Below are positions 1,243 to 58,621 of a stretch of 64,000 bases of DNA, piece after piece. How positions within the stretch are numbered: position 1 is the first letter of the stretch; each line of letters opens with the position of its first letter. The notes below the pieces were generated by a model that made no database searches, was not told the DNA's origin, and worked only from the letters and a program-made list of their open reading frames with translations. The DNA is from Isoetes taiwanensis (taxonomy: Eukaryota > Streptophyta > Lycopodiopsida > Isoetales > Isoetaceae), in NCBI GenBank assembly GCA_021234155.1, contig JAJEKV010000042.1:3870995-3934994 (forward strand). Direction: 5' to 3'. Both the position numbers and the translations under genes were made by a program.

Positions 1243-1947
1243 GTTTTAGAAAGTTTTAATTTAGGTTCATTTGTTTTGCGGACCTATTTATTCAAACATA
1301 AATTAAAACATAAAGGAATGACTTATTTATTCATTCCTTTATGTTTTAATTTAAAGGAATGAATAAAGGAATGAATAATTTAAGTCATTCCTTTAAATTA
1401 AAGGAATGACTTAAATTATTCATTCCTTTATGTTTTAATTTAAAGGAATGAATAAAGGAATGAATAAAGGAATGAATAATTTAAATCATTCCTTAAGGAA
1501 TGAATAAAGGAATGAATAATTTAAGTCATTCCTTAATTAAAGGAATGACTTAAATTATTCATTCCTTTATTCATTCCTTTAAATTAAAACATAAAGGAAT
1601 GAATAATTTAAGTCATTCCTTTAAATTAAAGGAATGACTTAAATTATTCATTCCTTTATGTTTTAATTTAAAGGAATGAATAAAGGAATGACTTAAATTA
1701 TTCATTCCTTTATGTTTTAATTTAAAGGAATGAATAAAGGAATGAATAATTTAAGTCATTCCTTTAAAGGAATGACTTAAATTATTCATTCCTTTATGTT
1801 TTAACTTAAAGGAATGAATAAAGGAATGAATAATTTAAGTCATTCCTTTAAATTAAAGGAATGACTTAAATTATTCATTCCTTTATTTAAAGGAATGACT
1901 TAAATTATTCATTCCTTTATTCATTCCTTTATTCATTCCTTTACTCA
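1243..1947. repeat. Palindromic tandem array (AAAGGAATGAATAATTTAAG type)
   Basis: Starts with a copy of the roughly 70-base arm-internal segment also seen at 2815-2935 and 3180-3290 (TTTAGGTTCATTTGTTTTGC). It then continues as alternating forward and reverse blocks built from AAAGGAATGA and its complement TCATTCCTTT separated by AATTTAAGT or TTTTAATTTA. Each block is self-complementary, so the array can fold into many small stems. The same unit fills the centre of the palindrome at 2930-3215. Confidence 0.85.
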
Positions 1948-2100
1948 TTCAATTTCAACGAAACAGAAGCATAATCCGACCATGATTGATGTAATCCGAT
2001 TATGAAAAAGTGAACAACAATTAAACAAAGGCATTAATAGGGATGCTTTATTCACTGTTATATAAGCTCAAGATAACAAAAACAAAATTCAAAGCTAACG

Positions 2101-2770
2101 ATGCTTGCTTCCAACTTTTTTCATGTCTTGGGTCATAATGCCGAGTTATGAGATCAATATTGAAGTGGTGGATCAAGATTTTTGCGATTGTAACAACGAA
2201 AGGATTTTTATTCCACAAATTCTTTGTTTTACAAAGCACCAAATCCAGGATTCGTGTGACAAACTCAACAGTTTGATAAGTGAAAATACCATGGTCCGAA
2301 ATAGGCCTACCACTCTTCTAACATGCTATTCTCTCGATGATTTTGGAATAGATCATGATTGCCTATTTGGTGGATGTGTTCTTGTGGATAAAAGGCTGGC
2401 CGAAGTGATTTTCGTTTACAACCGTGATGATTTGGATGATGAGGAAAAATGCTTTATTTGTCAAGAGGAATACGTGCAGGAAGATGAGGATCGAGGTGAT
2501 ATTGTGGGATTCGATGCGTGTGGGCATCACTGCCACGGGAGTTGTTTGTATAACTGGGTTAGATCTGTGGGGGCAGTCCCTTATAATCAATCAGAGGGGA
2601 GAGCTTTGGATTGCTTTGTGTGCTTGCAAGAACAAGATGATGAAGGTCTTGAAGCTGAAATCTTGCAGGATCACACAGTACTCGCGGCGCATATTGGTTG
2701 TCTTATGGAATGGATCGAAGCCAATAGCAGTCACTATAAGTCCGCCATGTGTGGCGCAAAGTGGTATTAA
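2101..2770 (+). pseudogene. RING-H2 protein, left palindrome arm, 5' damaged
   Basis: This is the plus-strand mirror of the minus-strand gene at 3327-4022. From about residue 20 onward the frame is open and matches the other copy almost everywhere. It includes a RING-H2 pattern starting CFIC, followed by CGHHCHGSC and then CFVC, giving Cys and His ligands in RING order. The ATG at 2101 that matches the other copy's start runs into a stop after about 16 codons because about 45 bases present in the right arm are missing. The open frame can only start from non-matching codons. A late Cys kept in the other copy (CAMC) is Ser here (SAMC). Probably a decayed copy, possibly still transcribed. Confidence 0.7.
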
Positions 2771-2929
2771 CTTAGAGATTTGTTTGGTCAAGGGAAAGTT
2801 ATTTGATATTTTAGAAAGTTTTAATTTAGGTTCATTTGTTTTGCGGACCTATTTATTCATTTTGATATTTTAAAAAGTTTTAATTTAGGTTCATTTGTTT
2901 TGCGGACCTATTTATTCAAACATAAATTA

Positions 2930-3215
2930 AAACATAAAGGAATGACTTATTTATTCATTCCTTTATGTTTTAATTTAAAGGAATGAGTAAAGGAATGAAT
3001 AAAGGAATGAGTAAAGGAATGAATATATGAATAATTTAAGTCATTCCTTTATTCATTCCTTTATTCATTCCTTTAAATTAAAACATAAAGGAATGACTTA
3101 AATTATTCATTCCTTTATTCATTCCTTTACTCATTCCTTTAAATTAAAACATAAAGGAATGAATAAATAAGTCATTCCTTTATGTTTTAATTTATGTTTG
3201 AATAAATAGGTCCGT
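2930..3215. repeat. Central palindromic array of the RING palindrome
   Basis: The same AAAGGAATGA / TCATTCCTTT blocks as at 1243-1947, here forming the turn between the two inverted gene arms. The symmetry centre is near 3050. Confidence 0.8.
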
Positions 3216-3326
3216 AAAACTTTCTAAAATATCAAAATGAATAAATAGGTCCGCAAAACAAATGAACCTAAATTAAAACTTTCTAAAATATCAAATAACT
3301 TTCCCTTGACCAAACAAATCTCTAAG

Positions 3327-4022
3327 TTAATACCACTTTGCGCCACACATGGCGCACTTATAGTGACTGCTATTGGCTTCGATCCATTCCATAAGACAAC
3401 CAATATGCGCCGCGAGTACTGTGTGATCCTGCAAGATTTCAGCTTCAAGACCTTCATCATCTTGTTCTTGCAAGCACACAAAGCAATCCAAAGCTCTCCC
3501 CTCCGATTGATTATAAGGGACTGCCCCCACAGATCTAACCCAGTTATACAAACAACTCCCGTGGCAGTGATGCCCACACGCATCGAATCCCACAATATCA
3601 CCTCGATCCTCATCTTCCCACGATTCCTCTTGACAAATAAAGCATTTTTCCTCATCATCCAAATCATCACGGTTGTAAACGAAAATCACTTCGGCCAGCC
3701 TTTTATCCACAAGAACACATCCACCAAATAGGCAATCATGATCTATTCCAAAATCATCGAGAGAATAGCATGTTAGAAGAGTGGTAGGCCTATTTCGGGC
3801 CATGGTATTTTCACTTATCAAACTGTTGAGTTTGTCACACGAATCCTGGATTTGGTGCTTTGTAAAACAAAGAATTTGTGGAATAAAAATCCTTTCGTTG
3901 TTACAATCGCAAAAATCTATATTGATCTCATAACTTTCTAACCAATGGATCAAACTTTCTCTGGATACAAACAAAAGCTCGGCATTATGACCCAAGACAT
4001 GAAAAAAGTTGGAAGCAGGCAT
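3327..4022 (-). CDS. RING-H2 finger protein (probable E3 ubiquitin ligase)
   Basis: A single open frame of 231 residues starting MPASNFFHVL. Around residues 130-190 it carries CFIC, then CGHHCHGSC with a Trp four residues later, then CFVC. This fits RING-H2 (C-x2-C, C-x-H-x2-H-x2-C, C-x2-C) with an unusually long spacer before the last Cys pair. A second small Cys/His group (H..GC...CAMC) lies at the C-terminus. RING-H2 domains usually recruit ubiquitin-conjugating enzymes; the substrate is unknown. The acidic stretch DDLDDEEK precedes the RING. No membrane segment is seen. This is the better preserved arm of the palindrome. It may be a real gene, or cargo of an unrecognised element. Confidence 0.6.
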   Translation of the reverse strand: MPASNFFHVLGHNAELLFVSRESLIHWLESYEINIDFCDCNNERIFIPQILCFTKHQIQDSCDKLNSLISENTMARNRPTTLLTCYSLDDFGIDHDCLFGGCVLVDKRLAEVIFVYNRDDLDDEEKCFICQEESWEDEDRGDIVGFDACGHHCHGSCLYNWVRSVGAVPYNQSEGRALDCFVCLQEQDDEGLEAEILQDHTVLAAHIGCLMEWIEANSSHYKCAMCGAKWY

Positions 4023-4137
4023 CGTTAGCTTTGAATTTTGTTTTTGTTATCTTGAGCTTATATAACAGTGAATAAAGCATCCCTATTAATGCCTTTATTT
4101 AATTGTTGTTCACTTTTTCATAATCGGATTACATCAA

Positions 4138-4356
4138 TCATGGTCGGATTATGCTTCTATTTCGTTGAAATTGAATTTTTGTACCCTGGGCATCATGGTC
4201 GGATTATGCTTCTGTTTCGTTGAAATTGAATTTTTGTACCCTGGGCATCATGGTCGGATTATGCTTCTGTTGTTGAAATTAGATTTTTGTACCCTGGGCA
4301 TCATGGTCGGATTATGCTTCTGTTGTTGAAATTGAATTTTTGTACCCTGGGCAGGT
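4138..4356. repeat. Tandem repeat, about 55-59 bp x 4
   Basis: Four consecutive copies of a unit containing CATGGTCGGATTATGCTTCT and ending TTTTTGTACCCTGGGCA. Copies differ by a few bases and by loss of TTC in the last two. The first copy overlaps the outer edge of the palindrome's right arm, so the array grew from that arm end and has no counterpart at the left arm. Confidence 0.9.
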
Positions 4357-5776: not shown

Positions 5777-8700
5777 GTAAAATAACAATAGGTTGCTAAG
5801 TTGATAACATTCAGGCTATGGTTGGATAAGGTTACAACACGGTGGTTGTAAGACAAGTTTTGAGAATGCTTAGATATGGTTATAAAATAAGATTGGCATG
5901 ATAGTCGGATTGAAGCTCATGTGTAAATAGCAGATGTGTGACGTAGAAGGAAATGACATGATTACATCATGATCCTACTTGAGGTCTATAAAGTTGTTGG
6001 CCCTAGGGTTATGGCTAGAATAGTCGGTGATAGTTCTTGGCCTTGGAAAAATTCTTGGAGTATAAGAAAGCACTTAATGGAACAAATTAGTTAGGTTAAG
6101 CATTTATATTTAGAGAATGATATCCACTTAAATTATGGCAGATTGAAGAACTGATTGGCCAAGATTGAACAATGTTATCCATCTTATGGATAATGAAAAA
6201 GAAGATGATGAATAGAAGAATAACATATTTAATCGTGGTAGTAGGTAAATCATGAAGTTGAACGAAAGAGTTGTCAGATAAAGCCCACACATGAGATAAA
6301 GGCAGAGGGGATGGTATAGACATGGGCAAGTGCCATTTTTTAAAAATCTTAGAATGTAATAGAAGAGTTGTAAGCACATCTAGTAATGGTGCTTCCATGT
6401 ATCCTAATTATTTGGCATGCTAGAAGTGATTGTAGATTAATGGAGGGATGGTAATTGCATTTCTTGATTAAGGATATAATCAAAGGATTGAAGTTGTGAA
6501 CGAAATACATGAAGTAAGAGCTTCATTGAAATTTACGGCAATTGGTGCCTAGAAAATCTTGTTGAAAGACTAACCAGTGTGATGGGGTAATATGTATGGA
6601 AGTAGGCTAAATATAGAGGTCAAGTGTATAGCCTAGGATACTTCAAAGTCATTGGATGAACTCGTAGAGGAATTCTCTGTACCATGGGCTATAATTCTTA
6701 TGGGATCCCTTGTATCAACTTAAGTATATTACCTAGCTATTTGGGGACTTGATTATGTATTTTGCTTGTTACTTTTTGGATTTGGCTACCCAAGAAGTCT
6801 TGAGAGATTACATATCTAGTTCGACCTGAGTATCTCTTTGGAATGGTGGTTTTATTTTTCTATGGCACGTACCTTCTTTATAAAAAGTTGCATTAACTGC
6901 ATTACGTTTATTGTATTGAATTGGATATGTATGTTCCTCTTTTCCTTTTGTTGTTATTGATGCATAGAGTATACTCAATGTTATTAATATTTGAGTTAGT
7001 TCTAGACTCGGCGGTATGTTAAGTTAAATGTTAGAAGGGTCGTGCATTAGAGCTATCTAATATGTATCTTTCCTTGAGAGGCATCATCTTGGATTGGAAG
7101 GCTAAGCAATTGTGTTTGACAAGGATGGGCATGTTCTGAGGGATAAAATTGTATTCATTTGGGAGTATGTTGAATTGAGGATTAAGATGTGAAGGTATAA
7201 AGGGAAGAGACCCGGGGAATTAATAAGGCAGACTGCCAGACTATAAAAAAAAAAAATTAGATCAATGGTTGGGTTTGTTCCAAGGAAGATGTCACAAAGG
7301 GAGATACAAACTGGATTTTTCATGAGTGCTTTAAGATGCACCCATGAGGACATGGGTTGAATTTTTGGAGGAGATATTGTAACAGACCTAGCAACCTAGC
7401 ACCAACATTAAGATGTAAGTAACGTTGCCATTATATAAGAGTGCATTTTTAATGGTAAAATAAATGATTATGCGCTAAGAATACATGCATGCAATGTGTC
7501 CATGCATGCAGCGTGTGCATGCATGCAAGGTCATTGCTAGGTTATATAAGCGCAACAATATTATTCTTGATTTCTTGGGAAGGAGTTTTCCATGGGAAAG
7601 AAGCCTTTTTTTGTTGTGGTGGATGCGCTTGCACCAGATTAATCAGAATTGAACCAAGGAGAAGGAGCAAAGTATTTCCAGGTGGGGGTCAAGTCTTACA
7701 CCTGGGGTTCTTGTGATGTCTATGTTTTGGTTGACGTAGTTTGGGAAAACTTAATGAGCTTTGATGATGATTTGTAGATTTAATGGATTGAGGCATGATC
7801 TGAATTGAATTAACATAATCAAAGATAGATTCTTGAATGTAAACGAGAAGGAAAAATAGTGCTTTTAGATTATCATCTGTGGTTTTTATATAATCTTATA
7901 GTATAGATTGATTCTGAATAGCTGAGAAATTGACGAGTTAAACACACATAATTGTATTACGGTTGGATGATGTTATTAAATTATATTAGGTTGTTGGTCC
8001 TTGAAAGTATATCATGTCGGTGATTTAATTGTTCTAGGAGCATGAGATCATACTTACTATTGTCAATGTAGCGTGTTGCTAATGTTTGCATTTAATTAAA
8101 GGAATTATGATTTATCATATCTCTGATTTGGTTGGCTTAGTAAAGTATAATTATGTGTGCATGGATTGTTGTTAAAAACATGTCTTTGGGATGTATCATG
8201 GTGTGGTTAGTTACCCACTAATATGGCATTATGATTTGCTACACAATTTGGTTGACATTGAGAATCCCTTGTTGGAATATGCTATGATATATTTTTATGT
8301 GCTATAATAGTATTGGAATGCTCTGTGATATAATCCTCTGGGGCCGGAATCTAGGTACGATGGTCTAGACTCGCAGTTATTGCACAGTGATATGTGAATA
8401 GTTTATTTGGAACATCGGGCGTTGGTACCTTAGGGTACAACGTCTTGCACAGTTAAGTGGTCCTCCAATAATGGACGTAGCGTGGATGGGTGTGTACACA
8501 CGTGATTTACCTCGCCTCTATGTCATTGGCCTGATCAGCCGAGTTGACCATGCTCAGACCCAGAGGAATATTGGTTGTTGTCTATGTTGCCATGGTTGCT
8601 AAGTTGTTATTATGTTAATTGGGATGTCTTGTATTGAATTGCAATGGTTGTAGTATGTAGTAACTATTCATGGGTAAATTGTGCATTGTGGGACATGCTT

Positions 8701-8841
8701 GTATGGATTACTAACTTGAGTTCCAGGGGCGAGGCTACGGTAAGGTTAATTTGGATGGATGGATTATGTTGTTGATGCTTAGGCATGTCCTAGAACCTCG
8801 ATCCCCACTTAATCCCTGTGACTAACCCCATTGTTGGTGTA
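5777..8841 (+). repeat. Giant inverted repeat, left arm part 1 (end of an older LTR element)
   Basis: This stretch recurs as the reverse complement in 22537-24968, 26161-26270 and 31968-32308, so it is the left arm of a roughly 3.3-kb inverted repeat. Near 7370 the sequence TTTTTGGAGGAGATAT (a polypurine-tract-like string) is followed at 7378 by TGTAACAGACC, the usual look of an LTR start. I read 5777-7377 as the 3' internal part and 7378 onward as the 3' LTR of an old, non-coding LTR retrotransposon. No domain could be read in it. The LTR-like part contains three CATGCATGCA clusters near 7485-7530. Confidence 0.75.
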
Positions 8842-10376
8842 TGTGACGTTCCAGCACAGTATACGCTCCCAGGACGTACATTGTACTGCCACGTCACGCG
8901 TACACGCCACCCCGATTGACGTGTACGCCAACGGATAGCCAGGTAAGTAGCCCTAGGGGGCAACTTGCTAGGAGTGTTCATATATTATTAATGTGCACAT
9001 GTGCACATTAATGAGGGCACACCTTTCCATGTTGGCATATTTTGCCACCTAGCCACTAAAGGCAAGTGGGGCCTTTCCAATTATCCCACATGCCAAATTG
9101 GGTAATTGGAAACCCTAGCCTAAACCCCCATGTCTATTTAGGGTAGGAAAACCCTAGCTTGCTAGTTTTTCGTCCTTAGGGTTTTAGAGCTCGGTTTTGG
9201 CTGCCCCAGAGCCAAAACCGCCTCCCGCACGCCCAAGCCAATTGCGCCATCGGTTTCCCTCGAATTCGATCACCAAAGGATGGTTGAACTCGTGTCGAGG
9301 AGCCACTCAAGGATCAGAGTTTGGTCAATTTAATAGCTTAAACCGCCTTCTAGTCATAGAATCAGTAGGTTTAGACTATTAAATTGCCCATAGTAGTTAT
9401 CTAGATCTTAGATCTTGACACTAACTAAAGAACCTAACTCTATGATTGGATCTAGTTCTTTAGTTCTTCCTCGATATATTTGGATGATGTATTTCTGTGA
9501 ACTCCTTGTATTGGGAAGGGGGTAGAGGCCCCAAAGCTTGTAGTTGATGCTCCTAGAGTAGCCTCTCTAGCACACCGTAGATTCGCCTGTGGCCAAGAGC
9601 CACACCGGGTTGGGGTGAAGGGGCCATCCGGCTAAAAAGGAGGTTCATGTCCCGACTCTTGAACGATCCCCCGGTGTGTAAAGCCTACCGGGATCATTGT
9701 GACTAGGTCTAATGGCTTACCACCGAAAGTGGGTAAGGCATGGGCTCGACACCGTGAAGTGGTGTACACTTTCCAAAGGTTCACCGAATACGGGCAAAGG
9801 GCCCTCTAGTCACCTTGAGTTAGCATGCATCTCCTGAGGGAGTGATCCCTACCCCCCATCGAACTGGGAGGATGAGACCCAGAATAGCCCCTTCGGCTAT
9901 GCATCCCGGGCGGGCTACAATCAGTCCCAACACTTTTCAGCCTACTCGCAAAGTGTGCAATGGAGGGGCGGATGGAGTGGACAACCCTATGCCATGTTCT
10001 TATGCCGCCCAAATCCATTGCCATGAATTCTCGCCTGCAACGAACTCGAGACCCAAGCCGCCACCATCCATTGAGTCCGAGCCTTGGGTAGGATCCCCTA
10101 TGTGATGTGCCGATCTTTGTCTATGCAGATATGAGGGGACCATCCTTCGAGATGGTCACAGATGTTGATGTATGTGCTACCGACATGTATGTTTACGCCC
10201 GCCAGCCTAGGTAGGCCCCGAGGGAGACGGGGTAGAATGACACCTTCACTCTCCCCACCGAGACTCGCACGGGTGCAAAGATATGTGGAGGGCCCCCAGA
10301 CGCATGGAGCTGGTGTGGGGAAGAACTCCTGCTTTGTATACCTGTGAGTGCACCGTGATACGAGTAGGGGACGCCA
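8842..10376 (+). repeat. 5' LTR of the chromovirus
   Basis: A direct repeat of 20400-21942. It starts TGTGACGTTCC and ends near GGGGACGCCA. Large parts, such as 9040-9180 against 20590-20735, match almost base for base. Differences are mainly one-base changes in run length and scattered changes in C/G-rich words. A possible primer-binding site follows at about 10381 (GGTATCGTGAGC, resembling but not matching the initiator-Met site). Confidence 0.9.
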
Positions 10377-10583
10377 CAAAGGGTATCGTGAGCAATGTTC
10401 TTGGAGACCAAGAGCAAAGCACCGACCATGTTCCCAAAGAGTACTAACTTGATAGGATCCTCAAGCCTCTAAAAAGTGGGAAAAATTTTTTCTCACCTTT
10501 GTAGTTATGCTAAGCTAGTAACAATTAAGTGAATTGGAATTTAACAAGATTAAAAAGAACGAGCCAAAATTTTCCAGTGAGGT

Positions 10584-10655
10584 GGTTCATCACACCGCTA
10601 CCTCGTCAAAAAACTAACTTTTTGTTTTGAAGCGAGGCTAAGCTATGAGACATCG
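10584..10655. promoter_or_regulatory. Hairpin repeat 1 (upstream of the H3-like gene)
   Basis: The first of four related units of about 70 bases. Each has a left stem word (here CTACCTCG), a loop rich in A with AAAACTAACTTTTTG or similar, and a right stem word (CGAGGC...ATGAGAC). Units lie in pairs before each of two TATA boxes in this element. Confidence 0.65.
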
Positions 10656-10769
10656 AGCCAAGAACACCAAAACATGATGAATTTGAGATAAATAATGTGG
10701 TAAGGCTAATTCTAAGGTAGGAATTAGTTAGAATAGCATGTTTTAATTACCTAAAAACCCTAGAATGGG

Positions 10770-10838
10770 AGATGAGATCTCGCTACCGGGTCGCAAAACT
10801 AAACATTAGTATTGGAACGAGGCGCAAGCCGTGAGACC
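10770..10838. promoter_or_regulatory. Hairpin repeat 2 (upstream of the H3-like gene)
   Basis: Second unit: GAGATCTCGCTACCGGGTCG on the left and GAACGAGGCGCAAGCCGTGA on the right. The right half GAGGCGCAAG..GTGAGACC is shared with units 3 and 4. Confidence 0.65.
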
Positions 10839-10944
10839 AATGGGTAGAAAAAAAAGTCTGAAATAAGTATAAGTTTTAGATAAATTGGTGCCTTAGCATG
10901 TTAAACAGAAAGCAACTTGAGTTTTGACCTAAAATTCCCCAAGC

Positions 10945-10953
10945 TATAAATAG
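10945..10953 (+). promoter_or_regulatory. TATA box of the H3-like gene
   Basis: TATAAATAG lies 112 bases upstream of the H3-like ATG at 11057, outside the LTR and followed by a pyrimidine-rich leader (CCCTCATTTTTTTTT). The same nine bases occur at 12908 ahead of the next reading frame, so this is probably a real internal promoter and not the LTR promoter. Confidence 0.65.
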
Positions 10954-11056: not shown

Positions 11057-12306
11057 ATGGCCCGAACCAAACAGACCGCAAGGAAGCGTCGCCCAGGCGA
11101 AACCACCAGCGCCACTGAGACAGAGATCATTCGGAAGATGCTTCGTGAGAGGCTCGCAAGAGGGGGTCGTTCGCCTTCTGGACGAAGAGCAAGACACCTC
11201 CGATTTGATCGATGTCTTCAACCAGCAGGTGGAGGAGGACGAGGCCACATCTCCAAACTCCATGGACGACGAGACGAGGGAGGTGTATGAGGAGATAGAG
11301 AGGGAGATCCGGCAGCAGGAACAAGCACTATCTGTGACGCGACTCCACGGAAATCCTCGAAAGCAGATGAGCAAGTGATCGTCCGAGCCACGGAGGTAGC
11401 GTACCTTAGAAGATTCATCGAAGTACGAGCAGCCGCGAGAAAGGGAAGACAAAAAGAGGAAAAGGGAGGAAGAGGAACAAAAGGCAGCAGAAGAAAAGAA
11501 GAAAAAGAAAGGGAAGTTCGTGGGTCGCATAAGGAGAACGGGCGGACCGCCTCACGAGGAAGAGGCCAAACCCAAATATTATCATTAAGGAGCGGCAACC
11601 TGACGAACCCCCAAACCCTTCCGACGACTCTTCTGATGAAGACTTCAACCCTAACGCTGCAGGTGGAAGCTCTTCCAAGCACCCAGCGACGAAAGGTGAA
11701 GTACCCGAAAGCAGCCGGCACCGAAAGCAACCCCAGCAAGACCAAGTGCAGAAGCCCCCTGAGTACCCGGCATGGGATAGAAAGAAGCAACCACGACCTG
11801 CCCGGGAAGCCTACGTCACCGACAGGGTGAAGATTTATGAGAGGAAGATGAGAGAGCACGAGGCCTACATGAAGAAATGGGAGGCCTATAACAAATATTA
11901 TGAGGAAAACAGGGTTAAGTTCATCGAGGGAGGGCGACCAACGAAGCAGCAAACCCTAAGGCCGCCACCACCGAAGCCCAAGGTTCCCAAGCCGCCACCC
12001 AGGAAGAAAGCGGATAGGAAGGAGGTGGAGAGAAGAGCGTTAAGGGAGATTAGACACTTCCAGCGCAGCTTCGGTCTCCTAATCCCCCGTGCCCCCTTCG
12101 CTCGGTTGGTGCGTGAAGTTATGCAGGCCTATAGAACAGACTTTAGAGTCACGCATTTAGGGCCACGGGCAATGCAAGAGGCGGCTGAGGCAAAGATAGT
12201 GCAACATTTTGAAGATTCAACAGCCTGCACTATCCACGCCAAGCGGGTAACCTTAATGCGACAAGACATGAGTCTTGCGACCCGCATTAAGGGAGAACGC
12301 CCTTAG
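11057..12306 (+). CDS. Histone H3-like protein with a giant tail insertion, carried by the retrotransposon (frame broken)
   Basis: Starts MARTKQTARK, identical to the H3 tail with its Lys4 and Lys9 positions. It then leaves the H3 sequence for about 300 residues: an acidic part (DEEQDTSDLIDVFNQQVEED), a Lys/Glu-rich part, a Ser/Asp patch (PSDDSSDEDF), coiled-coil-like ERKMREHEAYMKKWEAY, and PPPPKPKVPKPPPRKK. The last 89 residues (from ALREIRHFQRS, 12037-12306) are an H3 histone fold: LVREV in helix 1-2, loop TDFR, MQEAAEA in helix 2, FEDS, IHAKRVTLM, and C-terminal RIKGERP. By eye a little over half of these positions match canonical H3, with no insertion or deletion. H3 pairs with H4 in nucleosomes. 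The reading frame shifts near 11155 and again between about 11380 and 11575; 11573-12306 is open. TATA and poly(A)-like signals flank it. It is not CENH3 by loop 1 length. Confidence 0.85.
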
Positions 12307-12451: not shown

Positions 12452-12521
12452 GATGTTCATACAGCCGCCCTCGTCGCAAAACAAAAAGTTAGGATTGAAG
12501 CGAGGCGCAAGCTGTGAGACC
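12452..12521. promoter_or_regulatory. Hairpin repeat 3 (upstream of the second transcription unit)
   Basis: The third hairpin unit: GATGTTCATACAGCCGCCCT on the left and GCGAGGCGCAAGCTGTGAGA on the right, around AAAAAGTTAGGATTGAA. Confidence 0.65.
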
Positions 12522-12649
12522 TCGCCCAAACTTGACCAAAACAGCTCCAAATTGACCAAATAAGGGGTCGATTCTGCCTAATTTGGTGAGCCCATCACCC
12601 TTACACCATTAGTTTACCCAAATTGGACACCTTTAATCGAAATGGGACT

Positions 12650-12720
12650 GATGTCTCACAGCGCGCCTCCGTCAAAAACAAAAAAGTTAGGATTGAAGCG
12701 AGGCGCAAGTCGTGAGACCT
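12650..12720. promoter_or_regulatory. Hairpin repeat 4 (upstream of the second transcription unit)
   Basis: The clearest unit. GTCTCACAGCGCGCCTC on the left pairs with GAGGCGCAAGTCGTGAGAC on the right across an A-rich loop carrying the same AAAAAGTTAGGATTGAA as unit 3. Confidence 0.7.
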
Positions 12721-12907
12721 CTTACCAATTCTTCACCAGACTTGTCAAAGTCACCTTCAACCCATCGATAGCATCTTTTAGGTAACCTAGCCTTGTTCAA
12801 GCATCTCCTATAGTCCTCAAACTCCTATTTTGACCTCTCAGATAAGTTAGAATTACCCAATCCTAGGAAATTTCCAAGTCATCCAAAAATTAGGGTTTCC
12901 CCTTTTC

Positions 12908-12916
12908 TATAAATAG
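12908..12916 (+). promoter_or_regulatory. TATA box of the second transcription unit
   Basis: TATAAATAG lies 124 bases before the ATG at 13032. Box, spacing and leader (GCAAATCTGCTCC against GAAATCCGCTTCC) resemble those of the H3-like gene, so the two promoters look like copies of one cassette. Confidence 0.6.
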
Positions 12917-13031: not shown

Positions 13032-14527
13032 ATGGCAACTTCTGATTTCCGTGAGATGGTACAGCAACCATGCCATGCCGCCGAGGTCGACGTCGACCAA
13101 ATCTTCCAGATTTTCAGAAGGAGGTAGACGCCCAAGCAACCTTGCACGCCACCCCAGCTTATAGTAGAGTCTTGACTGAAGTTCCAAGCTAGGGTAGAAC
13201 CAGCTTAGTGCAACTCCCTCCTTGTATAGGATATTTTGTTCCTAGACAGGGCCCTCGCAGGGTAAAGATTAGACGATGTCCCTAACATCGCCAAATACCT
13301 CACAAACAAAGCGCACCGCACACCTCGAGCCAATGGTCCTAATCGGCCAACAGACCAAGTACTTCTTTTTCAACACCGCCTCGGCAATCTTTCTCACCCA
13401 CCGTGTTTGAGAACATTGTGGGGAAACCTCTATTCCCCCATGGACGGGATCCATTAGCCGTAAGTAAAAGATAACAACGGCTCCTCACACAAGATGAACA
13501 GGAGCAGAAGGGAAGGAAGAAGACTCGATGAACAGGAACTGAGGAGGAGGAAGACGATGTTGAGCTCGACCCAACAGAGGGAGCAGCGACAAGCAGAGCG
13601 GGAGTGGCAAGACTGAAAGAAGCCGCGTACTCTCGTGAGTCGCTACCACCCCTGGGTTAGGCATCACAAGCCCGGCTCCCATTATCGCCGGTTGTGAGGA
13701 GTTTCTACCCCGAGCGACATTCAAAACCTCCCGAGTGCAGGGAAAGGGAGTACCGACCTGAAGAGTTGCTGCACCAACTCCGGAACGGACTTGGACGACT
13801 TCATCGCCCGAGGAGAGTCCGACTTTCCCTCCAAGTAAGGGAAGCCGACACTTACACGGGAGAGTTTACCTCCCGGCATCCAAGCCTACAAAGAACATCA
13901 TCGCAGATCATGGAGGCGCATAAGGCTGAGAACAAGCTACCGACGGAGGAAGAGTTCCTTGCTCTCCAGAAACGATGGGGATCCGCTTATGCGACCTCAA
14001 ACATCCTAACGGGTAAGCTCGGCCCGCTAACCTCCCCGATAGGACAGCGACCACCTCGTGAGGGCTTCAAAGAATACCAAGGACTACAGTGGAGCTCACC
14101 ACTGGAGGTTGATGATTTCGGAAGCGCATACGAGCTGGATACCGAAAGTGGTCGAGGACCCATCTCGCAAACGACATGTGTCATTACGCCATTACCCGCC
14201 ATTGCCGATGGATGGAAGAATAGCGGTTATCCACCGCAAGTTCACCCCCGAGGCGCAGGAAGGAGTATCGCTGCTGATTGCACTCTCAGATTCGCCGGCA
14301 TGCACGGCTACCCCTTAACACCGAAAGTATGCAATCCTGGTGAAAAGAGCGGTAGCACTCGACGCCTTCGACTTCGCCATACCTTACAAAGCGGCGGCAG
14401 CAAGACTGCCGCGATGCCAGCCTTACACCTCCCACCGCAGAATAGAAGATTTAGCAAGAGCATTACAGGTGGATCTCCAGCCAATGTTTAGGAACTTGGG
14501 CCATTCAAAGGGGAATGTTCCCAAGTG
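13032..14527 (+). pseudogene. Unrecognised ORF between the H3-like gene and gag, frameshifted
   Basis: Begins MATSDFREMVQQPCHAAEVD after TATAAATAG, then continues in pieces across three frames to NLGHSKGNVPK and a stop. The longest clean piece is 13694-14491; another clear piece is MDGRIAVIHRKFTPEAQEGV near 14200-14310. I recognise no domain. It may be an N-terminal extension of Gag or a separate accessory protein. A consensus 5' splice site (CAACGTAAGTG, about 14563-14573) follows the stop, and an acceptor-like TTACAG lies near 14790, so splicing into gag is possible but unproven. Confidence 0.45.
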
Positions 14528-14730: not shown

Positions 14731-16004
14731 ATGAACCACTTGTGTATGCAAATTAGAGGCCCGAGCGCAGAGAACGACAAACCGCTGAACTTACAGGGGG
14801 GAACAGAGCCCGCCTGTGCCACGCCCGCAAGGAACCTCGCTTTGAAGAGTTTGGACAAATGACCCGTAAGAAGAAATATCGCAAATGAGGACAGACTCTA
14901 ACAGATAAAGGCCTTTGCTAGCCGCACAAGTGAGCAGTGTTCGGTGGTAACGCCAACCGCCGCAAGCATCAGCTCTGAGAACAGGTAGAGACAGAAGAGG
15001 AGCAAGAGAGGAAGGTCCCCAGCCTTGACTCCTCCGACTAAGCTCGATTCGATCCGATTCGAGGAAGAAGAAGAGCGTAACCAAGTCCGAAAGCAGACAT
15101 CTAAAGGCGAGGAACCACCCGAGGGACGACAAAGGGACACAAGAACCTCCCACTACCGTAAGAAAGTAGACTCGTGATTGGGAAATGTTTGAAGGCCAGA
15201 AGCTCGAGCAATTCTCAAAGCGAGAACAGGTCGCATGGAAGCAGAGGCTTGGCTTGACGAGATGAGCGAATACGGCAATGCCTATGGTATGAAGGATAAG
15301 GATAAAGGCAGGGTGGCAACAAATAACCCGAAGGGAGCAAAGACGCATTTGGTGGAAGGGCTATGCCAAGGCTCATGGCTTAAGCAGGATGCTTGCGTGT
15401 TCAAGAAGTTTGCTAAAGCCTTCAAGCCCATTACGCTCCAAGAGAGCACAAGTCCAAGATGATGCAAAGAGCTTCTACAGTTGCGCAAAGAAGGCAACAA
15501 GTCAAGACATGTAAATACACAGAGGAATTTATGAGGCTAAGGTCAGATGTGCCAAAGTTAGGTGAGAAGCATGCAAAGGAAAGCTACATTGAAGGTCCGA
15601 ATGAGGAGATCCGCAAGCTTGTAAGGGCAATAAACCCTAGAACGGTATCGAAGCGAGTCCAAGGCAATAAGCTTGCAAGGGACAGACCTCGTAATAGCGG
15701 GCAGGGCAACAAGATACCAAGATAAAGGCAAGGCAAAGCAGTGCTTTTTAGCCCCGAGAACAAACCCAGCCCAGACCAGCTAGAGCCCCATATAGTGGCA
15801 ATCAAGGGAAACAGCAGGAGAAGAAGCAGTGTGTCCTTCAAAGACAAACAGAAGGGTCAAACTACTCCAAAGCAAAGGCGATCCTTTCTCGCAGCCATGC
15901 CCAAGGAAAAGAGACAGAGTGCATAGAAAAGCAAATTTGCTTCCGTGTGTTTCAGCCAGGCCATAGGACAAAGAACCGCCCATATGTCATGAGTGCAAAT
16001 GGCT
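14731..16004 (+). pseudogene. Chromovirus Gag (capsid and zinc knuckle), frameshifted
   Basis: A candidate start is ATG 14731. The capsid-like region is 15235-15725: AEAWLDEMSEYGNAYGMKDK, then KGAKTHLVEGLCQGSW and KKFAKAF, continuing in the next frame as YTEEFMRLRSDVPKL and NEEIRKLVRAINPRT. This is the order of the retrotransposon gag domain (W...L.G.A...W...F...F...Y). Near 15930-15975 CFRVFQPGHRTKNRP resembles a CCHC zinc knuckle in which two Cys positions read Val and Arg. The product packages the element RNA. At least three frameshifts or stops break the frame. Confidence 0.7.
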
Positions 16005-16079: not shown

Positions 16080-16566
16080 TCATATCTTTGCCGCAATAGA
16101 TACAGAGCAAGCAGAGAGCCAGTATAAAGTAATTTCCACAGTGGGAAAGGCCAAGGCCAAGTCATTTATAGTCCTAATAGATTCGAAGTAGCCATAACTT
16201 TGCATCTCCCGCAATGGTTCAAATGTTGAAGTTGAAACCATTAAAGTCAAAGCCAAGGCCCGCTGTCTTAGCAAGTGGAGCAAAGAAGGCGCGCACGGCA
16301 GTAAAAGAATCAACTTTGACATCGACTTGCCGGGGATTAAGATCCAGATGGGGGCGGAGGTAATGAGCATCGGCAAATATGACTTGATAATAGGTATGGA
16401 GTACCTTGGACCAGCAGGGGCCATTATTGATTGTGGAAAGCGGAAGGTGACCTTCCCAACACCCGACGGCAAGATCATTGAGATAACAGTAAAGAAGTTG
16501 TCCCCATCATGCAAAGCAGTATGTCTTCTAAACGGCCGCTCAAGTGCATCAAGAGTGAGCAGGTAG
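16080..16566 (+). pseudogene. Chromovirus aspartic protease region
   Basis: FIVLIDS followed by SHNFAS-like sequence (16155-16210) matches the active-site neighbourhood LIDSGSTHNF, but the DSG itself is broken by a stop or indel. The downstream half is open: IGKYDLIIGMEYLGPAGAII (16370-16430), the usual flap-distal GMDWL-type motif, then KVTFPTPDGKIIEI. The family role is processing of Gag-Pol. Confidence 0.7.
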
Positions 16567-16689
16567 CATACATCTTCAAGCTTGAGATTAGTGAGCCGGA
16601 ATTGGAAGGAAGCAAAGAAGACAAGATGCTCAAAGAAGTTGCCGAGGCAAATAGCTAAGTTGATCACGGAGTTCCACGATCTCTTTCCG

Positions 16690-17450
16690 TGATGAGATCA
16701 AGCAGCTCCCTCCTTATAGGGGAGTCGAAAAGCAGATAGCACTCAACCGAACAAAACCGACAAGCAAGGCTCCATATAGAATGACAACGCAGGAGTTGTC
16801 GAGCTAAAGAAGCAGCTTGCAGGAGCCGCCGACCTAGGTTTCATTAGACCTAGTGTCTCGCCGCTTGGAGCTTCCATTCTTTTGTCAAGAAGAAGGATGG
16901 ATCTTTGAGAATGTGCATAGACTATAGACAGCTTGAATAAGCACACCATTAAGAACAAGTATGCGCCCCAAGATCGACGACTTGATGGATCAGCTTCAAG
17001 GAGCAAAGATCTTCTCCAAAATCGAATTTAAGGTCGGTTATCATCGATACGGATAAAGGAGGAGGATATCCACAAGACCGCCTTCAGACGCTGTATGGGC
17101 ATTATGAGTTCACAAAGGATGCCTTTCGGCTTATCAAATGCCCCCGAACGCTCATGAGGCTCATGAACGATATCTTCGGGAGTTCCCGGACACCTTTGTG
17201 ATTGTTTTCTTTGATGACATTTTGGTGTATAGCAGATCCCTTGAAGAGCACGCGCAACACTTGAGAAGGGTGCTAGAGAAGTTGAGGAGGCACCAGTTGT
17301 AATGCCAAGTTGTCGGCGCCACTTCGCAATGTAGAAGGTGGAATACCTTGGTCATGTGATCTCGGCAGAAGGCATCTCGACGGACCCCGCCAAGATTGAA
17401 GCAAAGGATTCAAAGGGTCGGGCGCCAAGAATGTGCACGAGGTCGAAAGT
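16690..17450 (+). pseudogene. Chromovirus reverse transcriptase, frameshifted
   Basis: RT blocks appear in order across shifting frames: LPPYRGVEKQIALN, ADLGFIRPSVSPLGA, a KKDGS-like segment, [46 protein letters not shown], then [12 protein letters not shown] (about 17200-17232), which holds the catalytic DD pair. The RT copies element RNA into DNA. Stops and one-base shifts occur roughly every 60-150 bases, so no complete frame exists in this copy as given. Confidence 0.75.
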
Positions 17451-17519
17451 TTTCTGGCCTAGCAGTGGTACTACAGAAGTTCGTGAAGAACTTTGCTAAG
17501 ATAGCAGCCCCAAGCTAAT

Positions 17520-18030
17520 CGCACCGGACGAGGGCGTAGAAGGTGAAAGATTGGGTAGAGCATTGGCACAAGAAAGCCCAAAAGGGATTTGAATTGTTGA
17601 AGGAAGCTTTAACAACAGCCCCAGCCTTTAACCCCCGACCCGAGAAAGATAAGCTTGTAGCAACGGATGCGAGTAAGATAGCTACAAAAAGTGCAAAGGC
17701 TTTATGCAAGAAGAGCGCGGTGGTAGCGATGATTCCGTGAAGATGAACGACGCCGAGACGCCGCCACCCAACGCACGATCGTGAATTGCTTGCAGCTTGT
17801 CGTGGCATTAAGAATATGGAGGCACTATCTCTTGGGAAGGAAGTTCCAATTGATACCCACCATCGAGCCTCCAATATGTATTCACGCAACCACACCTCAA
17901 CTGAGGCAGGGAGATGGATGGAGTTCCTCGAGGAATACGACTTTGATATAGTCTACAAGCCGTGGAAACTCAATGTGGTAGCAGATGCGCCAAGGCATCC
18001 CCGACAACTAGAGTGCATTGCAACGCAATT
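17520..18030 (+). pseudogene. Chromovirus RNase H region
   Basis: GFELLKEALTTAPAFNPRPE and LVATDAS (17580-17670) correspond to the connection and the first catalytic Asp of Ty3/Gypsy RNase H. HDRELLAACRGIKNME (17768-17820) holds the catalytic Glu neighbourhood, and WMEFLEEYDFDIVYKPWKLN (17915-17973) the end of the domain. Interrupted by frameshifts near 17740 and 18000. Confidence 0.7.
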
Positions 18031-18199
18031 TCGACGCCTCCAAATGACTTTGGTAAGAGGATTGAAGAGTCCTTGCCAACGGATGTGGATTTCTGTGGAA
18101 GTATGGGCAAGCCTCTAAGGAGGCTAGAACAGATAAAGAGCGGAGGCCTTCAAGCATTATAAGAAGGAAGGCAACCTGTTATACCATAAGAACAAGTTG

Positions 18200-19230
18200 T
18201 GCGCATCTCAATCATCGTGTAAGGAAGTTGATCCTCCATGACACGCGACAACAGCCCAATAGCTGGCCATGCGATTCATGAAAACATATTTCAAAGCGCA
18301 GCAGCCTATTATTGGCCGAATGAAGAAGCAAATAGCTCGCTACATCAAGGAATGTCACTATGCCGCCAGACGGCGGCAGAGCAGCCAATTCCAGGGGCAT
18401 TAGAGCCATTAGCAAAGCCAAATGCTAAGTGGGAGGTAATCAGATGGATTTCATCACAGACTCCTAAGAACAAATGAGAGGCAAGGATGCCTTGATGGTA
18501 GTGGTCGACAAGTTGTCAAAGATGGCACATTTTGTGCCTTGCAGACCACGATACAAATTATGGATACAAAGAAAGCTCTTCACCAAAGAGATCTTCGTGC
18601 TTCATGGCATGCCAAGGGAGATTATCTCCCATTGAGATCCGGTTCATGAGTGCCTTTTGGCAAGACCTCTTTGCGACAATTCAGACTAAGCTATCCATGA
18701 GCACGGGCAGATCATCCTCGACGGATGGCCGACGGAGCGACCAACAGATCTTAGAAGACATGCTACTAAACTATGTCCGAATAAGCAAAGTATGTGGGAA
18801 GAATTTATTCACTTGGTGGAGTTTGCATACAATAGCACCAAGCAGAATCGTCCCAAATGTCGCCATTTATGATCAATTATGGCTATCGCTGTTTAACTCC
18901 GCATTACTTGGCACAACCCCGCGTCAAAAGTAGAAGTTTCGCAGCCAGATGTTGGCCGATATGCAGCAGCTCGTGGAAGAGGTTCGAGGGTATCTCGCAA
19001 GAAGCAGCAAGAAGTCGACAAAAAAGAGCATCGCCGATAAGCATCGAACGGTAAGAGAGTTCAAAGTTGGAGATGATGTATGGCTCAAGATAAAGGTGAA
19101 GCAGGCGAAGCTCAGGATTGGCAATTGCAAGAAGCTTGCTCCAAGGTGGGCTGGACCCTTCAGAATAATCAAGAGAGTAGGTAATCAATCCTACAAGTTA
19201 GAATTGCCAAAGACACCTAAAGATTCATAA
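18200..19230 (+). pseudogene. Chromovirus integrase, frameshifted
   Basis: The N-terminal zinc-binding region is visible around 18238-18380 (AGHAIHEN, then YYWP, then a Cys-rich ECHYAARR-type stretch). The core is broken: DKLSKMAHFVPCR (18500-18545), KEIFVLHGMPREII (18585-18625), and HLVEFAYNS around 18815-18835 in different frames. The C-terminal part is open at 18949-19230: DKHRTVREFKVGDDVWLKIK, then LAPRWAGPFRIIKRVGNQSY, typical of the GPY/F module. The role is insertion of the DNA copy into chromatin. Confidence 0.75.
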
Positions 19231-19264: not shown

Positions 19265-19562
19265 CAAATCCGCATTTAAGTTTTGGACACTCCAACGTTG
19301 TTGGAAATGACGGAGGAGCAGCTGGAAATAGTTCCAGAAATGATTCTTGATAAAGCTTTCAAGAAGACAAGGAGGTCGGAGTTCCTCCAATACTTGGTCA
19401 AGTGGAAACACTTGCCAGTGGAAGACGCCACGTGGGTACTTAAGAAGGATTTGGTAAAGCAAAGACCCACAGCTTTATGGAGCAATGGGACGGCAAGGTC
19501 ATCTCCTAAGAAATCGCCTCGTGCATGTCGATTTGGCGAGGTTAATTCTTGTATAGATTAAT
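19265..19562 (+). CDS. Chromodomain at the integrase C-terminus
   Basis: An open frame containing IVPEMILDKAFKKTRRSEFL, then QYLVKWKHLPVEDATWVLKK (about 19330-19445). This is the chromodomain of chromoviruses: PExILD, a variable loop, a YLVKWK-type strand, and PxEDATW. It follows the GPY/F module after the usual VSLLKKH-type link (19245-19262), which is in another frame. Chromodomains bind methylated Lys in H3 tails and steer insertion into heterochromatin. The same element encodes an H3 tail start at 11057, an unusual pairing. The stop at 19560 ends Pol. Confidence 0.85.
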
Positions 19563-20399: not shown

Positions 20400-21942
20400 T
20401 GTGACGCTCCAAGACAAAGATACGCCCCCCGTGACGCACATTGTAATCGCCACGCCACGCCGCACACGCCACCCCGATTGACGGTAATGCCAACGATAGC
20501 CAGTAAGTAGCCCTAGGGGCAACTTGCTAGAGTGTTCATATATTATTAATGTGCACATGTGCACATTAATGAGGGCACACCTTCCATGTTGGCATATTTT
20601 GCCACCTAGCCACTAAAGGCAAGTGGGGCCTTCCAATTATCCCACATGCCAAATTGGGTAATTGGAAACCCTAGCCTAAACCCCCATGTCTATTTAGGGT
20701 AGGAAAACCCTAGCTTGCTAGTTTTTCGTCCTTAGGGTTTTAGAGCTCAGCTTTGGCCCCCAGAGCCAAAACCGCCTCCCGTGACGCCTGCGAATTGCAT
20801 GATCGGGCTTCCCCCTGGCCTCGATCAGCTCAGCAGATGGTTGAACTCAGTCGAGGAGCCACTCAAGGATCAGAGTTTGGTCAATTTAATAGCTTAAACC
20901 GCCTTCTAGTCATAGAATCAGTAGGTTTAGACTATTAAATTGCCCATAGTAGTTATCTAGATCTTAGATCTTGGACACTAACCAAAGAACCTAACTCTAT
21001 GATTGGATCTAGTTCTTTAGTTCTTCCGTGATATATTTGGATGATGTATTTCTGTGAACTCCTTGTATTGGGAAGGGGGTAGAGGCCCTAAAGCTTGTAG
21101 TTGATGCTCCTAGAGTAGCCTCTCTAGCACACCGTAGATTCGCCTGTACAAGAGCCACACCGGTTGTGGGTGAAGGGGCCGACCGCTAAAAAGGAGGTTC
21201 ATGTCCCGACTCTGAACGATCCCCCGGTGTGTAAAGCCTACCGGGATCATTGTGACTAGGTCTAATGGCTTACCACCGAAAGTGCGGGTAAGGCATGGGC
21301 TCGACACCCGCGAAGTGGTGTACACTTTCCAGCTGGGTTCAATCAATACGGGCAAAGGGCCCTCTAGTCACCTTGAGTTAGCATGCATCTCCTGAGGGAG
21401 TGATCCCTACCGCCCCATCGAACCGGGAGGATGAGACCCAGAATAGCCCCCTTCTCGCTATGCATCCGGGCGGCTACAAAGTGTCCCAACACTTTTCAGC
21501 CTACTCGCAAAGTGTGCACAGTGAGGGGCGGATGGAGTGGACAACCCTATGCCATGTTCTTATGCCACCCAAATCCATTGCCATGAATTCTCGCCTCAAG
21601 AACGAACTAACTCGAGACCCAAGCCGCCATCCATTGAGTCCGAGCCTTGGGTAGGATCCCCTATGTGATGTGCTGATCTTTGTCTATGCAGATATGAGGG
21701 GACCATCCTTCGAGATGGTCACAGATGATGTGATGTATGTGCTAATGACATGTATGTTTACGCCCGCAGCCTAGGTAGGCCCCGAGGGAGACGGGGTAGA
21801 ATGACACCTTCACTCTCCCCACCGAGACTCGCTACGGGTGCGCTGATATGTGGAGGGCCCCTGTACGCATGGAGCTGGTGTGGGGAAGAACTCCTCGCTT
21901 GTATACCGGTGAGTGCACCGCATAATGCAGTAGGGGACGTCA
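20400..21942 (+). repeat. 3' LTR of the chromovirus
   Basis: A direct repeat of 8842-10376, preceded by the polypurine tract AAGGTGGGGAGAA (20387-20399). Compared with the 5' LTR it repeatedly lacks one base from a run: AGGGGG becomes AGGGG, CACCTTTCC becomes CACCTTCC, and CCAGGTAAG becomes CCAGTAAG. Confidence 0.9.
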
Positions 21943-27339: not shown

Positions 27340-28629
27340 GTTATTGTTCTGCATTGCATAGAGTGCTTTCCAGCCTGCTGCTACACGCAATCTTATGGAA
27401 GTGTCCCAGTGTAGAAGGAAACTCCACTCCCATATACTTGTAGGTGGGTGTCACCTCCACTTGTTGCCCTCGATAAGTGAATGAAGGGGGCCTTGGATGG
27501 CGCGAGGATGAGATTAGGACCACCTTGGTCTTGGCCAGATTGACCTTCATGTCTGTGGCCTGGCAGAATGTATCCAGAGCATCTAAGTGAGACTGCATAT
27601 CCTCTAGAGTGTGAGCTAAGAGGTCAACATCGTCTGCATAGATGAGTTGTCTGATGACCTGATGCAAAAGTTGGGTCCCACCACCCCCATTGTCCATGAG
27701 CCAGTGTTCCAACTGGTCAATGTACAGACCAAACAATGTTGGGGAAAGAGGACATCCCTGGCGGACCCCAATACTGCTAGTGAATGGTTATCCCGTCATC
27801 CGCATCTGGCCTATACAACTCTCGTACAACCTGTATACTGCATTTTGCATATCCACAGGAAACTCTAGTTGCCGCAATCTTTCCCATAACTTTTCCCGAG
27901 GCACGGTGTCAAAAGCCTTCGCAAAGTCAACAAAGCAACAATACAGGTCCCGCCGATGGTTTCTGCTATCCTCAACCAAAGTCCTCAATGTGAAGATATG
28001 ATCAATGGTTGAATGCCGGGGTCTGAACCCTGCTTGTGTGAGAGCTCGCACACCTGTTGCTTCTGCCCACCTGGTCAACTGTTGCTCAATAATGCCAGCT
28101 AGCAGTTTGGCAAACACCGAACTGACCATGATTGTTCGGTAATTGGTTTTGTGGTCCACTGCTGGGGGAATCCTTCCTGTAGCGCTCTGTTGAGCATAGT
28201 GGTTAGGACTGGTACCATAGGCTTCCCTGCCCACTTGAGCAACTCTGCCTGCATACCATCCAGGTCCGTTGCTTTCCCATTGGCCAAACGCTGCAGACCC
28301 TGGGTAACATCATCCTTTGTGATTTCTAATGTCGGACCATTCTGTGGGGGTATGAGTGCTCGTGTCCCTTGAGGATCATAGAGTTGCTGCAGGTATTGTT
28401 CCCACTGCTCATTAGTGATGTTCCCCGTAGGCTGGGCTGGCTTTCGAAGAACCTTGCGCCAAAAGATTCTAGGATGGCTTTTCAACATGGAAAACATTTC
28501 CCTTTGATGACGTGCAATGTACTGAGATTTCTTTGCCTTCAAGAAAGCACGATACTGTGTGGTGGCATGTGGGCGCATTGCGGGATCTCGTGGATGGGCG
28601 GAGCCGGCATTTGTATTCCTTACACTCAA
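27340..28629 (-). pseudogene. LINE ORF2 reverse transcriptase
   Basis: In order on the minus strand: LANGKATDLDGMQAELLKWA (28290-28230), NYRTIMVSSVFAKLLAGIIE (28150-28085), GFRPRHSTIDHIFTLR (about 28030-27985), CCFVDFAKAFDTVPREKLWE (27945-27885), then after a frameshift near 27790 QLIYADDVDLLAH (about 27650-27612) with the catalytic DD, and TDMKVNLAKTKVV (27558-27520). This is the complete finger-palm order of LINE RT. The frame is broken at about 28230 and 27790. Confidence 0.85.
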
Positions 28630-28929
28630 AGATCAAACCACCGACACGGGGAATGTTGCGATCCACGATACCTCTCGGCATGCTATCCCAAAACATCTTT
28701 CTACAACAGTACCAAGGAGCTCAATCAGCTGACCCGTTTGCTGCTCTAGCGTGGGGGCCTGCAAAATTCCTAAAAGGTCATCTATGAGCATATCAACATA
28801 ATCCTTTGCCTGCTCATAATCCAATCGCATAGCGAGGGGTATACAAGGAGCTGCCAGAGAAGGGGTTCTAGCAGCCGCCAAGCCAACCGCAAGTAGAGTG
28901 GAAGGTGATCTGAAATGTCTCCTCATCTC

Positions 28930-58415: not shown

Positions 58416-58621
58416 GAACTAATTATATTTGATAAAATGGCTGCCATTTCTCTGTATCATACATGTTCAATATCTGCATTTTTTATTTGGTTTAGCTTTC
58501 CTTCTAAGTTTAATATCTCACAGCATCTTGTTCCTTTCATTTAGCTTACCATGGAGATAAACAACTGAACAGTTGTAGGCTTCATTGGTTCTGTAATATG
58601 AAATGATCGAGGTTTGGAACA

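Follow-up and report, generated by a model that had tools for sequence, protein, structure and literature searches.

Core histones are usually the property of the host. The locus described here raises the question of whether a histone H3 can be a working part of an LTR retrotransposon, as a preliminary description, made from the DNA letters alone, had proposed. The window is a 64,000-nucleotide stretch of the Isoetes taiwanensis genome (assembly GCA_021234155.1, contig JAJEKV010000042.1, positions 3,870,995 to 3,934,994 of the forward strand), and all positions below refer to it unless another locus is named.

The window element and its broken H3 gene

The element in the window (Table 1) is a damaged chromodomain Ty3 LTR retrotransposon (chromovirus). 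It possesses an LTR pair, a primer binding site (damaged in the window and intact in relatives) and a polypurine tract, and gag, protease, reverse transcriptase (RT), RNase H, and integrase with a chromodomain are arranged in this order. The sequence TGGTATCAGAGC is taken by us to be a primer binding site of the Met-tRNA type, judging from its motif. Among the relatives, the chromodomain was matched only in L012 and L020, the two 10-kb loci that reach that stretch with a match. Inspection by eye revealed no clean target-site duplication at the ends of the window copy. A 2.5-kb inverted repeat (6212–8839 and 22532–24967) closely flanks the retrotransposon, which is placed as if near the center of this older inverted pair.

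Table 1. Features of the retrotransposon in the window and the basis of each assignment.
Feature	Position	Strand	Basis or remark
5′ LTR (TG...CA)	8842..10378	+	Self-BLAST and LTR alignment; 92% identity to 3′ LTR
Primer binding site (presumed), damaged	10379..10395	+	Read directly; in most relatives TGGTATCAGAGC directly after LTR end ...CGTCACA
Hairpin-capable GAAGCGAGGCGCAAGCYGTGAGACC motif, two copies, 5′ of H3 gene	10590..10845	+	Repeats; folding z −2.00, −0.49
TATA box CTATAAATAG	10944..10953	+	113 bp 5′ of H3 start
H3 gene, broken: MARTKQTARK tail, long acidic/KE/proline-rich insert, H3 fold, stop TAG	11057..12306	+	
H3 histone fold, 89 aa	12037..12303	+	Pfam profile and solved H3 chains
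Second pair of GAAGCGAGGCGCAAGCYGTGAGACC motif, between H3 gene and ORF2	12458..12728	+	Folding z −2.63, −4.76
Second CTATAAATAG box, 5′ of ORF2	12907..12916	+	
ORF2, broken, without Pfam family	13033..14525	+	Position matches 313-aa open stretch in relative L067
gag (capsid), broken	15142..15722	+	
Aspartic protease region	16198..16563	+	RVP_2 0.0022, under curated cut-off
Reverse transcriptase and RNase H, in pieces	16664..18115	+	
Integrase and C-terminal SH3-like domain	18232..19227	+	PF24626 1.4e-14
Integrase chromodomain	19280..19558	+	PF00385 3.4e-10
Polypurine tract AAGGTGGGGAGAA	20387..20399	+	Read directly
3′ LTR	20400..21942	+	Self-BLAST and LTR alignment

The H3 gene is located between the 5′ LTR and gag of the chromovirus on the shared strand, as first described. 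The ten residues MARTKQTARK are encoded at its beginning, the fold lies at its end, and an acidic, Lys/Glu- and Pro-rich stretch separates the two. The histone-family profile search that the preliminary description had called for detected the fold as PF00125 (Histone) with an E-value of 4.5e-27 and a score of 95.2 bits (cut-off, 26.4), and the fold aligns with solved H3 chains over 88 residues without gaps (best E-value, 2.6e-25). The profile E-value and the ten exact tail residues together rule out a chance match to H3.

The reading of tail and fold as one frame should be corrected for the window copy, though it holds for 10 of the 16 fetched relatives of the same type. In the window, MARTKQTARK and the fold lie in different frames, the frame of the fold is open over 11533–12303 only (257 aa), and at least three frame switches are needed to join them without a stop, which rules out one intact frame. 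A patch of the fold (RVTHLGPRAMQ) is also unlike that of all 16 fetched relatives (RVTDEALLAMQ in the nearest ones). The different frames and the aberrant patch therefore indicate that the H3 gene is broken in this copy. The origin of the breaks was considered from the LTR pair, whose differences comprise 56 transitions, 49 transversions, and 30 gaps, the majority only 1–2 bases long; the fraction of differing columns near CG is 0.61, versus 0.28 of all columns. Six other repeat pairs within the window have 2–13 gaps each and a CG enrichment that is mild at most. These values are suggestive of base-calling error at methylated CG as the source of the breaks in the H3 gene, or of an odd mutation process, with decay a possible source as well.

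The window fold differs from plant H3 at 39 positions. At 22 of them the same residue is present in natural H3-like proteins from the best 120 of 3,960 matches, versus a mean of 5.9 and a maximum of 15 in neutral simulations (n = 2,000). As many as 38 of the 39 differences fall on positions that are variable among natural H3s (the same best 120 of 3,960), a number reached by none of 2,000 neutral simulations. A cruder neutral simulation with BLOSUM scores gave a weak result (45/2,000; 22/234 among the stop-free ones). A simple decayed retrocopy of a host H3 gene is ruled out by this substitution pattern together with the dN/dS of the fold and the 147 scored relatives described below.

The insert has no homologue at E ≤ 10 among 179 candidates from the protein database, whose lengths of about 141–450 aa mean that longer fusions could escape. 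None of 15 pattern matches in viral contigs was a relative. The AlphaFold model of the 257-residue piece is poor (pLDDT 66.9). ORF2 is ruled out as a duplicate of the H3 gene, since the similarity is confined to a repeated motif.

The remainder of the window contains several unrelated features. A palindrome at 1947–4176, up to 99–100% identical in parts, includes two inverted ORFs that look RING/zinc-binding-like by eye (2099–2767, + strand; 3330–4046, − strand). Pieces at 27344–28632 (− strand) presumably belong to a non-LTR reverse transcriptase, judging by eye from a motif in the translation. A Copia-type pol with a 661-residue open stretch lies at 42571–45590 (+ strand, by eye). A host gene for an ethylene receptor histidine kinase is found at 58619–60310 (+ strand), with the nearest sequences in the liverworts Riccia (45%) and Calypogeia (44%) and in a moss (42%), and a receiver-like frame follows it at 60363–60938 (+ strand, by eye).

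H3 types and gene order in related elements

A search of the same assembly (1.66 Gb, 1,110 contigs) with PF00125 yielded 8,705 first-look candidates, a term that here and below does not denote confirmed copies; 150 of them were scored. The best 15 of the scored rows are at the level of canonical H3, and the eight given as loci (L001–L008) are 136-residue canonical H3. Long open frames end in many of the remaining 135 rows. From these rows, 20 loci (L009–L028) were hand-picked mainly for long open frames and form a biased set. In all 20, the H3 fold terminates an open frame of 342–494 residues, and three relatives scanned against Pfam match PF00125 with E-values of 3.2e-42 to 5.1e-42. The loci are divided into types A (15 loci) and B (five loci), which share a layout of an N-terminal domain, a linker that is charged or rich in Gln/Asn, an internal and incomplete H3 tail without K9, and the fold. 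The N-terminal domains of the two types are homologous (hhalign, 6.1e-42) and are absent from the fetched host H3 genes. Scanning of five proteins gave no Pfam family above the cut-off for the N-terminal domain (three of the five), ORF2, or ORF3, and a PDB search with one N-terminal domain gave no convincing relative, the single match having an E-value of 1.5. A further fold type, D, was met among the copies selected by gag.

The window copy represents another type, C. Its 257-residue piece used as a query gave 11,992 first-look candidates and 148 scored rows including the window itself. The 147 relatives have identities of 66–100%, most rows span most or all of the insert, and 91 of the 148 rows are free of stops by hand count. 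We fetched 16 type C loci (L046–L061), chosen mainly for open frames across the range of identities. A start of the form (M/I)(A/V)RTK is recognizable in 15, and ten are open in one frame from start to stop (417–451 aa), though one of these ten starts with ATA and L059 has an altered fold end. The ten are open without introns, and the H3 gene contains 14% T, both of which bear on introns as a source of the frame changes. About 300 residues separate the ARTKQTARK tail from the fold. K9 is present in 13 of the 16 tails (in three of these out of frame with the fold), and none of the 13 has a serine 10 after it. A further relative, L067, of which 9 kb were read, can be aligned with the window element over 9.2 kb (86.5%); its primer site is exact, its H3 gene is open, and an RT-RNase H frame of 752 residues stays open to the end of the stretch.

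The positions of conserved and altered residues should be noted. R69, R72, R83, C110, H113, K115, R116, and D123, which we take to form H3-H3′, H3-H4, and DNA contacts, are conserved in all 36 folds of types A, B, and C. In all 16 type C folds, R63 is replaced by proline and F84 by valine, changes that may alter nucleosome binding. Positions 86–89, presumably the region that sets chaperone choice, are changed in types A, B, and C. A canonical ARTKQTARKS tail adjoining the fold is found in none of these types: type C lacks serine 10 and has a distant tail, and the tail of types A and B is internal and partial. Judging from these features, the element protein is an H3 variant and not a canonical H3.

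The order H3-ORF2-(ORF3)-gag-pol is shared. In the 20 loci selected by H3, ORF2 was found 3′ of H3 in 19, ORF3 in 16, and gag in 17, the loci ending at 10 kb. In 15 of the 20, TGGTATCAGAGC is recognizable 0.5–0.7 kb 5′ of H3 as a primer site with no more than one mismatch, and in 14 of the 15 an LTR-like end (C/T)GTCACA immediately precedes it. The comparable part of the 5′ LTR of L023 (1,074 columns) shares 94.7% identity with its downstream partner L029. ORF2 and ORF3 (L016:4135–5520 and L016:5715–6221) are conserved extra genes between H3 and gag.

The preliminary description had recognized that H3 might be a chance insertion missing from other copies of the element. We therefore turned to copies chosen by gag. 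The gag query gave 14,782 first-look candidates and at least 137 scored rows, from which 16 copies were hand-picked across the list; 1.7 kb was read at the expected place of H3, and for five copies a further 2.2 kb nearer gag (3.9 kb in total). The first 1.7 kb contained an H3 match in 11 of the 16 copies (weak in L036), and the 2.2 kb nearer gag added L063 and L064, so that 13 of 16 have an H3 match upstream of gag, several of them broken. Nine of the 13 carriers yield a fold stretch of at least 80 residues, with three stops among the nine. H3 is absent from the 3.9 kb read in the other three copies: L030/L062 has ORF2, ORF3, and an inserted pol copy, one has ORF2 and ORF3, and one has ORF3 only.

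Upstream of the H3 gene, TATAAATA is found in all 16 fetched type C relatives, and a TATA box is located 107–114 bp 5′ of the start in all 13 copies with a matchable start. The window contains just two CTATAAATAG boxes, one 5′ of the H3 gene and one 5′ of ORF2, and two hairpin-capable motifs precede each box. The motif is GTCTCAC...GAGGCGCAAG...GTGAGAC; it is also found in L067, and of its four window copies, arranged in pairs, the fourth folds best and the second barely (Table 1). In the 17 type A and B loci whose start could be matched, the 200 bp 5′ of it contain no TATA box; TATAAAA is present at 237–240 bp in three of the 17.

Constraint on the fold and histories of the types

Values of dN/dS were calculated by the method of Nei and Gojobori as medians of pairs with dS within 0.05–1.5 (0.02–1.5 for type C). 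The H3-selected A and B copies were chosen to a large extent for their open frames, a bias toward low dN/dS; their value is 0.032 for the fold (92 pairs, mean dS 0.745), 0.144 for the N-terminal domain (49 pairs), and 0.202 for the linker (68 pairs). In type C, picked with the same downward bias, it is 0.086 for the fold and 0.108 for insert II (81 pairs each), 0.216 for insert I (80 pairs), and 0.243 for the tail (40 pairs from only ten in-frame copies), the constraint on the tail being far weaker than that on the fold. The gag-selected copies gave 0.067 for the fold (nine of 13 carriers; 11 of 36 pairs within the limits). For comparison, rows that are partly decayed, which raises dN/dS, gave 0.116 for ORF2 (67 pairs; 17 rows, 11 stops), 0.181 for gag (51 pairs; 15 rows, 10 stops), and 0.201 for RT-RNase H (39 pairs; 12 rows, 30 stops), L067 being added for the latter two. 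The constraint between copies that the preliminary description had asked to be measured is thus seen in all three sets, and these ratios indicate that the H3 fold is under strong purifying selection. The presence in 13 of 16 gag-selected copies, the constraint, and the relatives together argue that H3 is a maintained part of the element and not a chance insertion, in support of the idea of a histone as a working part of an LTR retrotransposon.

It is conceivable that H3 was captured once and is merely hitchhiking, its low dN/dS reflecting host selection before the capture or repeated recapture. Gene capture by transposons is common, as a review of the subject states (PMC7264820), and the histories of RT and H3 disagree (see below). 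Nonetheless, synonymous divergence among the copies is about 0.75 while the fold is almost static, which means that selection acted inside the element family, and types A and B have in common an N-terminal domain without a counterpart in the fetched host H3 genes. We therefore regard a mere passenger as highly improbable.

The distribution of constraint along the protein also bears on two other roles. An H3-like protein, alternately basic and acidic, might condense the RNA or cDNA of the element in the particle or the pre-integration complex without any need for nucleosomes. The location of its gene 5′ of gag on the same strand, the lysine-rich linkers, and the faster evolution of tail and insert than of the fold are consistent with such a packaging protein. 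But the strongest selection is on the fold and on the presumed H3-H3′ and H3-H4 contacts, neither of which a generic condenser needs, making this role unlikely. Alternatively, the protein might act as a decoy: by titrating readers and writers of the H3 tail, or H3 chaperones, it would weaken silencing without becoming a lasting part of chromatin. Type C tails mostly retain K4 and K9 and never have serine 10 (0/13), and positions 86–89, which we suppose to govern chaperone choice, are changed in types A, B, and C, as could be expected of a saboteur; types A and B, however, have no free tail, and a tail dN/dS of 0.243 is weak for a mimic. We consider this role, too, to be improbable.

Phylogenetic analysis of 48 folds placed types A, B, and D together near canonical H3 (98/90) and type C in a separate group (100/99) on a long branch, weakly joined (89/81) with a database protein, P0110, which we judge to be CENH3-like. 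A single origin of all H3 types is not rejected (p-AU 0.090), and outside the fold no similarity of type C to types A and B was found. One clade of type C and plant CENH3 is not rejected either (p-AU 0.435), though the CENH3 references are provisional and the best tree separates the two. Type C might accordingly be a captured CENH3 that takes the element to centromeric chromatin or makes such chromatin. Besides the p-AU value and the shared features of its weak neighbor P0110, the motifs RHFQ, LLIP, and VTLMRQD of type C, which we take to be CENH3-like residues, speak for this possibility. Loop 1 of CENH3/CENP-A is longer than that of H3. The extra residue is absent here, since the window fold aligns with H3 without gaps and the loop is equally long in the other type C folds; moreover, types A, B, and D are canonical-like. 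Together with the separation in the best tree, these points make a centromere mimic quite unlikely.

A tree of 12 RT sequences, several of them damaged, is discordant with the H3 types; for example, the RTs of L025 (type B) and L012 (type A) are nearly identical. The discordance counts against simple joint descent, and H3 modules may therefore move between backbones by recombination. Judging from these trees, H3 cassettes seem to recombine between pol backbones.

Possible role in chromatin and relation to known elements

The reading that we prefer, with a probability of roughly 0.6, is that the H3 variant encoded by the element pairs with host H4 and enters chromatin. The gene for the variant is the first one 3′ of the primer site and is followed by ORF2, (ORF3), gag, and pol. 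Its product would pair with H4 and enter nucleosomes, or at least engage H3-H4 chaperones. We infer binding to H4 because the contact residues are kept in 36 of 36 folds; altered deposition is suggested by the changes at positions 86–89, and altered signaling by the missing serine 10. The N-terminal part specific to the element would thereby be brought into chromatin, on the DNA of the element or at its target, and the element could benefit if new copies were shielded from silencing or if integration were steered. In type C, the K4/K9 tail without serine 10 is a possible docking site for the chromodomain that would be immune to the serine-10 phosphorylation switch. Docking of this kind cannot account for types A and B, since their tail, an internal one, has no K9; these two types and type D would instead bring in a different N-terminal part where type C has its free tail.

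A bolder extension, to which we give little credence, is that these retrotransposons are self-chromatinizing. Their own H3 would build element-marked nucleosomes on their own DNA. Type C, with an internal promoter, would use its K9 tail lacking serine 10 as a permanent dock for the chromodomain of its own integrase, so that the element would both write and read its own chromatin address. In types A, B, and D the place of this tail would be occupied by a different N-terminal part, and the cassette would be exchanged between backbones.

The element has the LTR, the primer site, presumably of the Met-tRNA type, gag-pol, and the chromodomain in common with chromoviruses (Ty3/gypsy elements with an integrase chromodomain), and differs from them in the H3 gene, ORF2, and ORF3 located 5′ of gag. 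Core histones with an extended N-terminal part are encoded by other parasites, as in the histone doublets of Marseilleviridae and the H4 of bracoviruses, but these belong to large DNA viruses and polydnaviruses and not to a retroelement. Among the papers listed in our searches of an open-access library, no histone-bearing LTR retrotransposon was evident.

The nearest precedent is an H3-like protein (H3L) of hAT DNA transposons in Pyrenophora tritici-repentis and Mycosphaerellaceae, likewise a transposon family with an H3 gene in many copies, according to the passages that describe it (PMC3538342, PMC6710886). In P. fijiensis all captured H3L copies are reportedly RIP-inactivated, whereas in P. 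tritici-repentis the capture is reported to be recent, with many copies potentially active (same passages). The carrier there is a DNA transposon and here an LTR element, and those passages mention no fused N-terminal domain such as that of types A and B. Among plant LTR retrotransposons with an additional ORF, Ty3/gypsy elements of Phalaenopsis are described as carrying an AlkB-like 2-ODD gene (PMC9289625; reviewed in PMC7264820). There, too, a host-derived domain is fixed in a giant Ty3 lineage, and an action on host surveillance is proposed in the pertinent text, but the domain is an RNA demethylase and not a histone (PMC9289625). The screen of 121 angiosperm genomes in the same paper lists 15 frequent extra domains, and no histone is among those named in the pertinent section (PMC9289625).

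An H3 fold that belongs to a retrotransposon and is, in the copies compared, constrained below the dN/dS of gag and RT would serve directly as a weapon or a tool in the contest between transposons and host chromatin. The elements offer natural H3 variants altered in the tail, at serine 10, and at the positions for chaperone choice and DNA contact. Self-marking, anti-silencing, and targeting of integration through the chromodomain thereby become testable questions.
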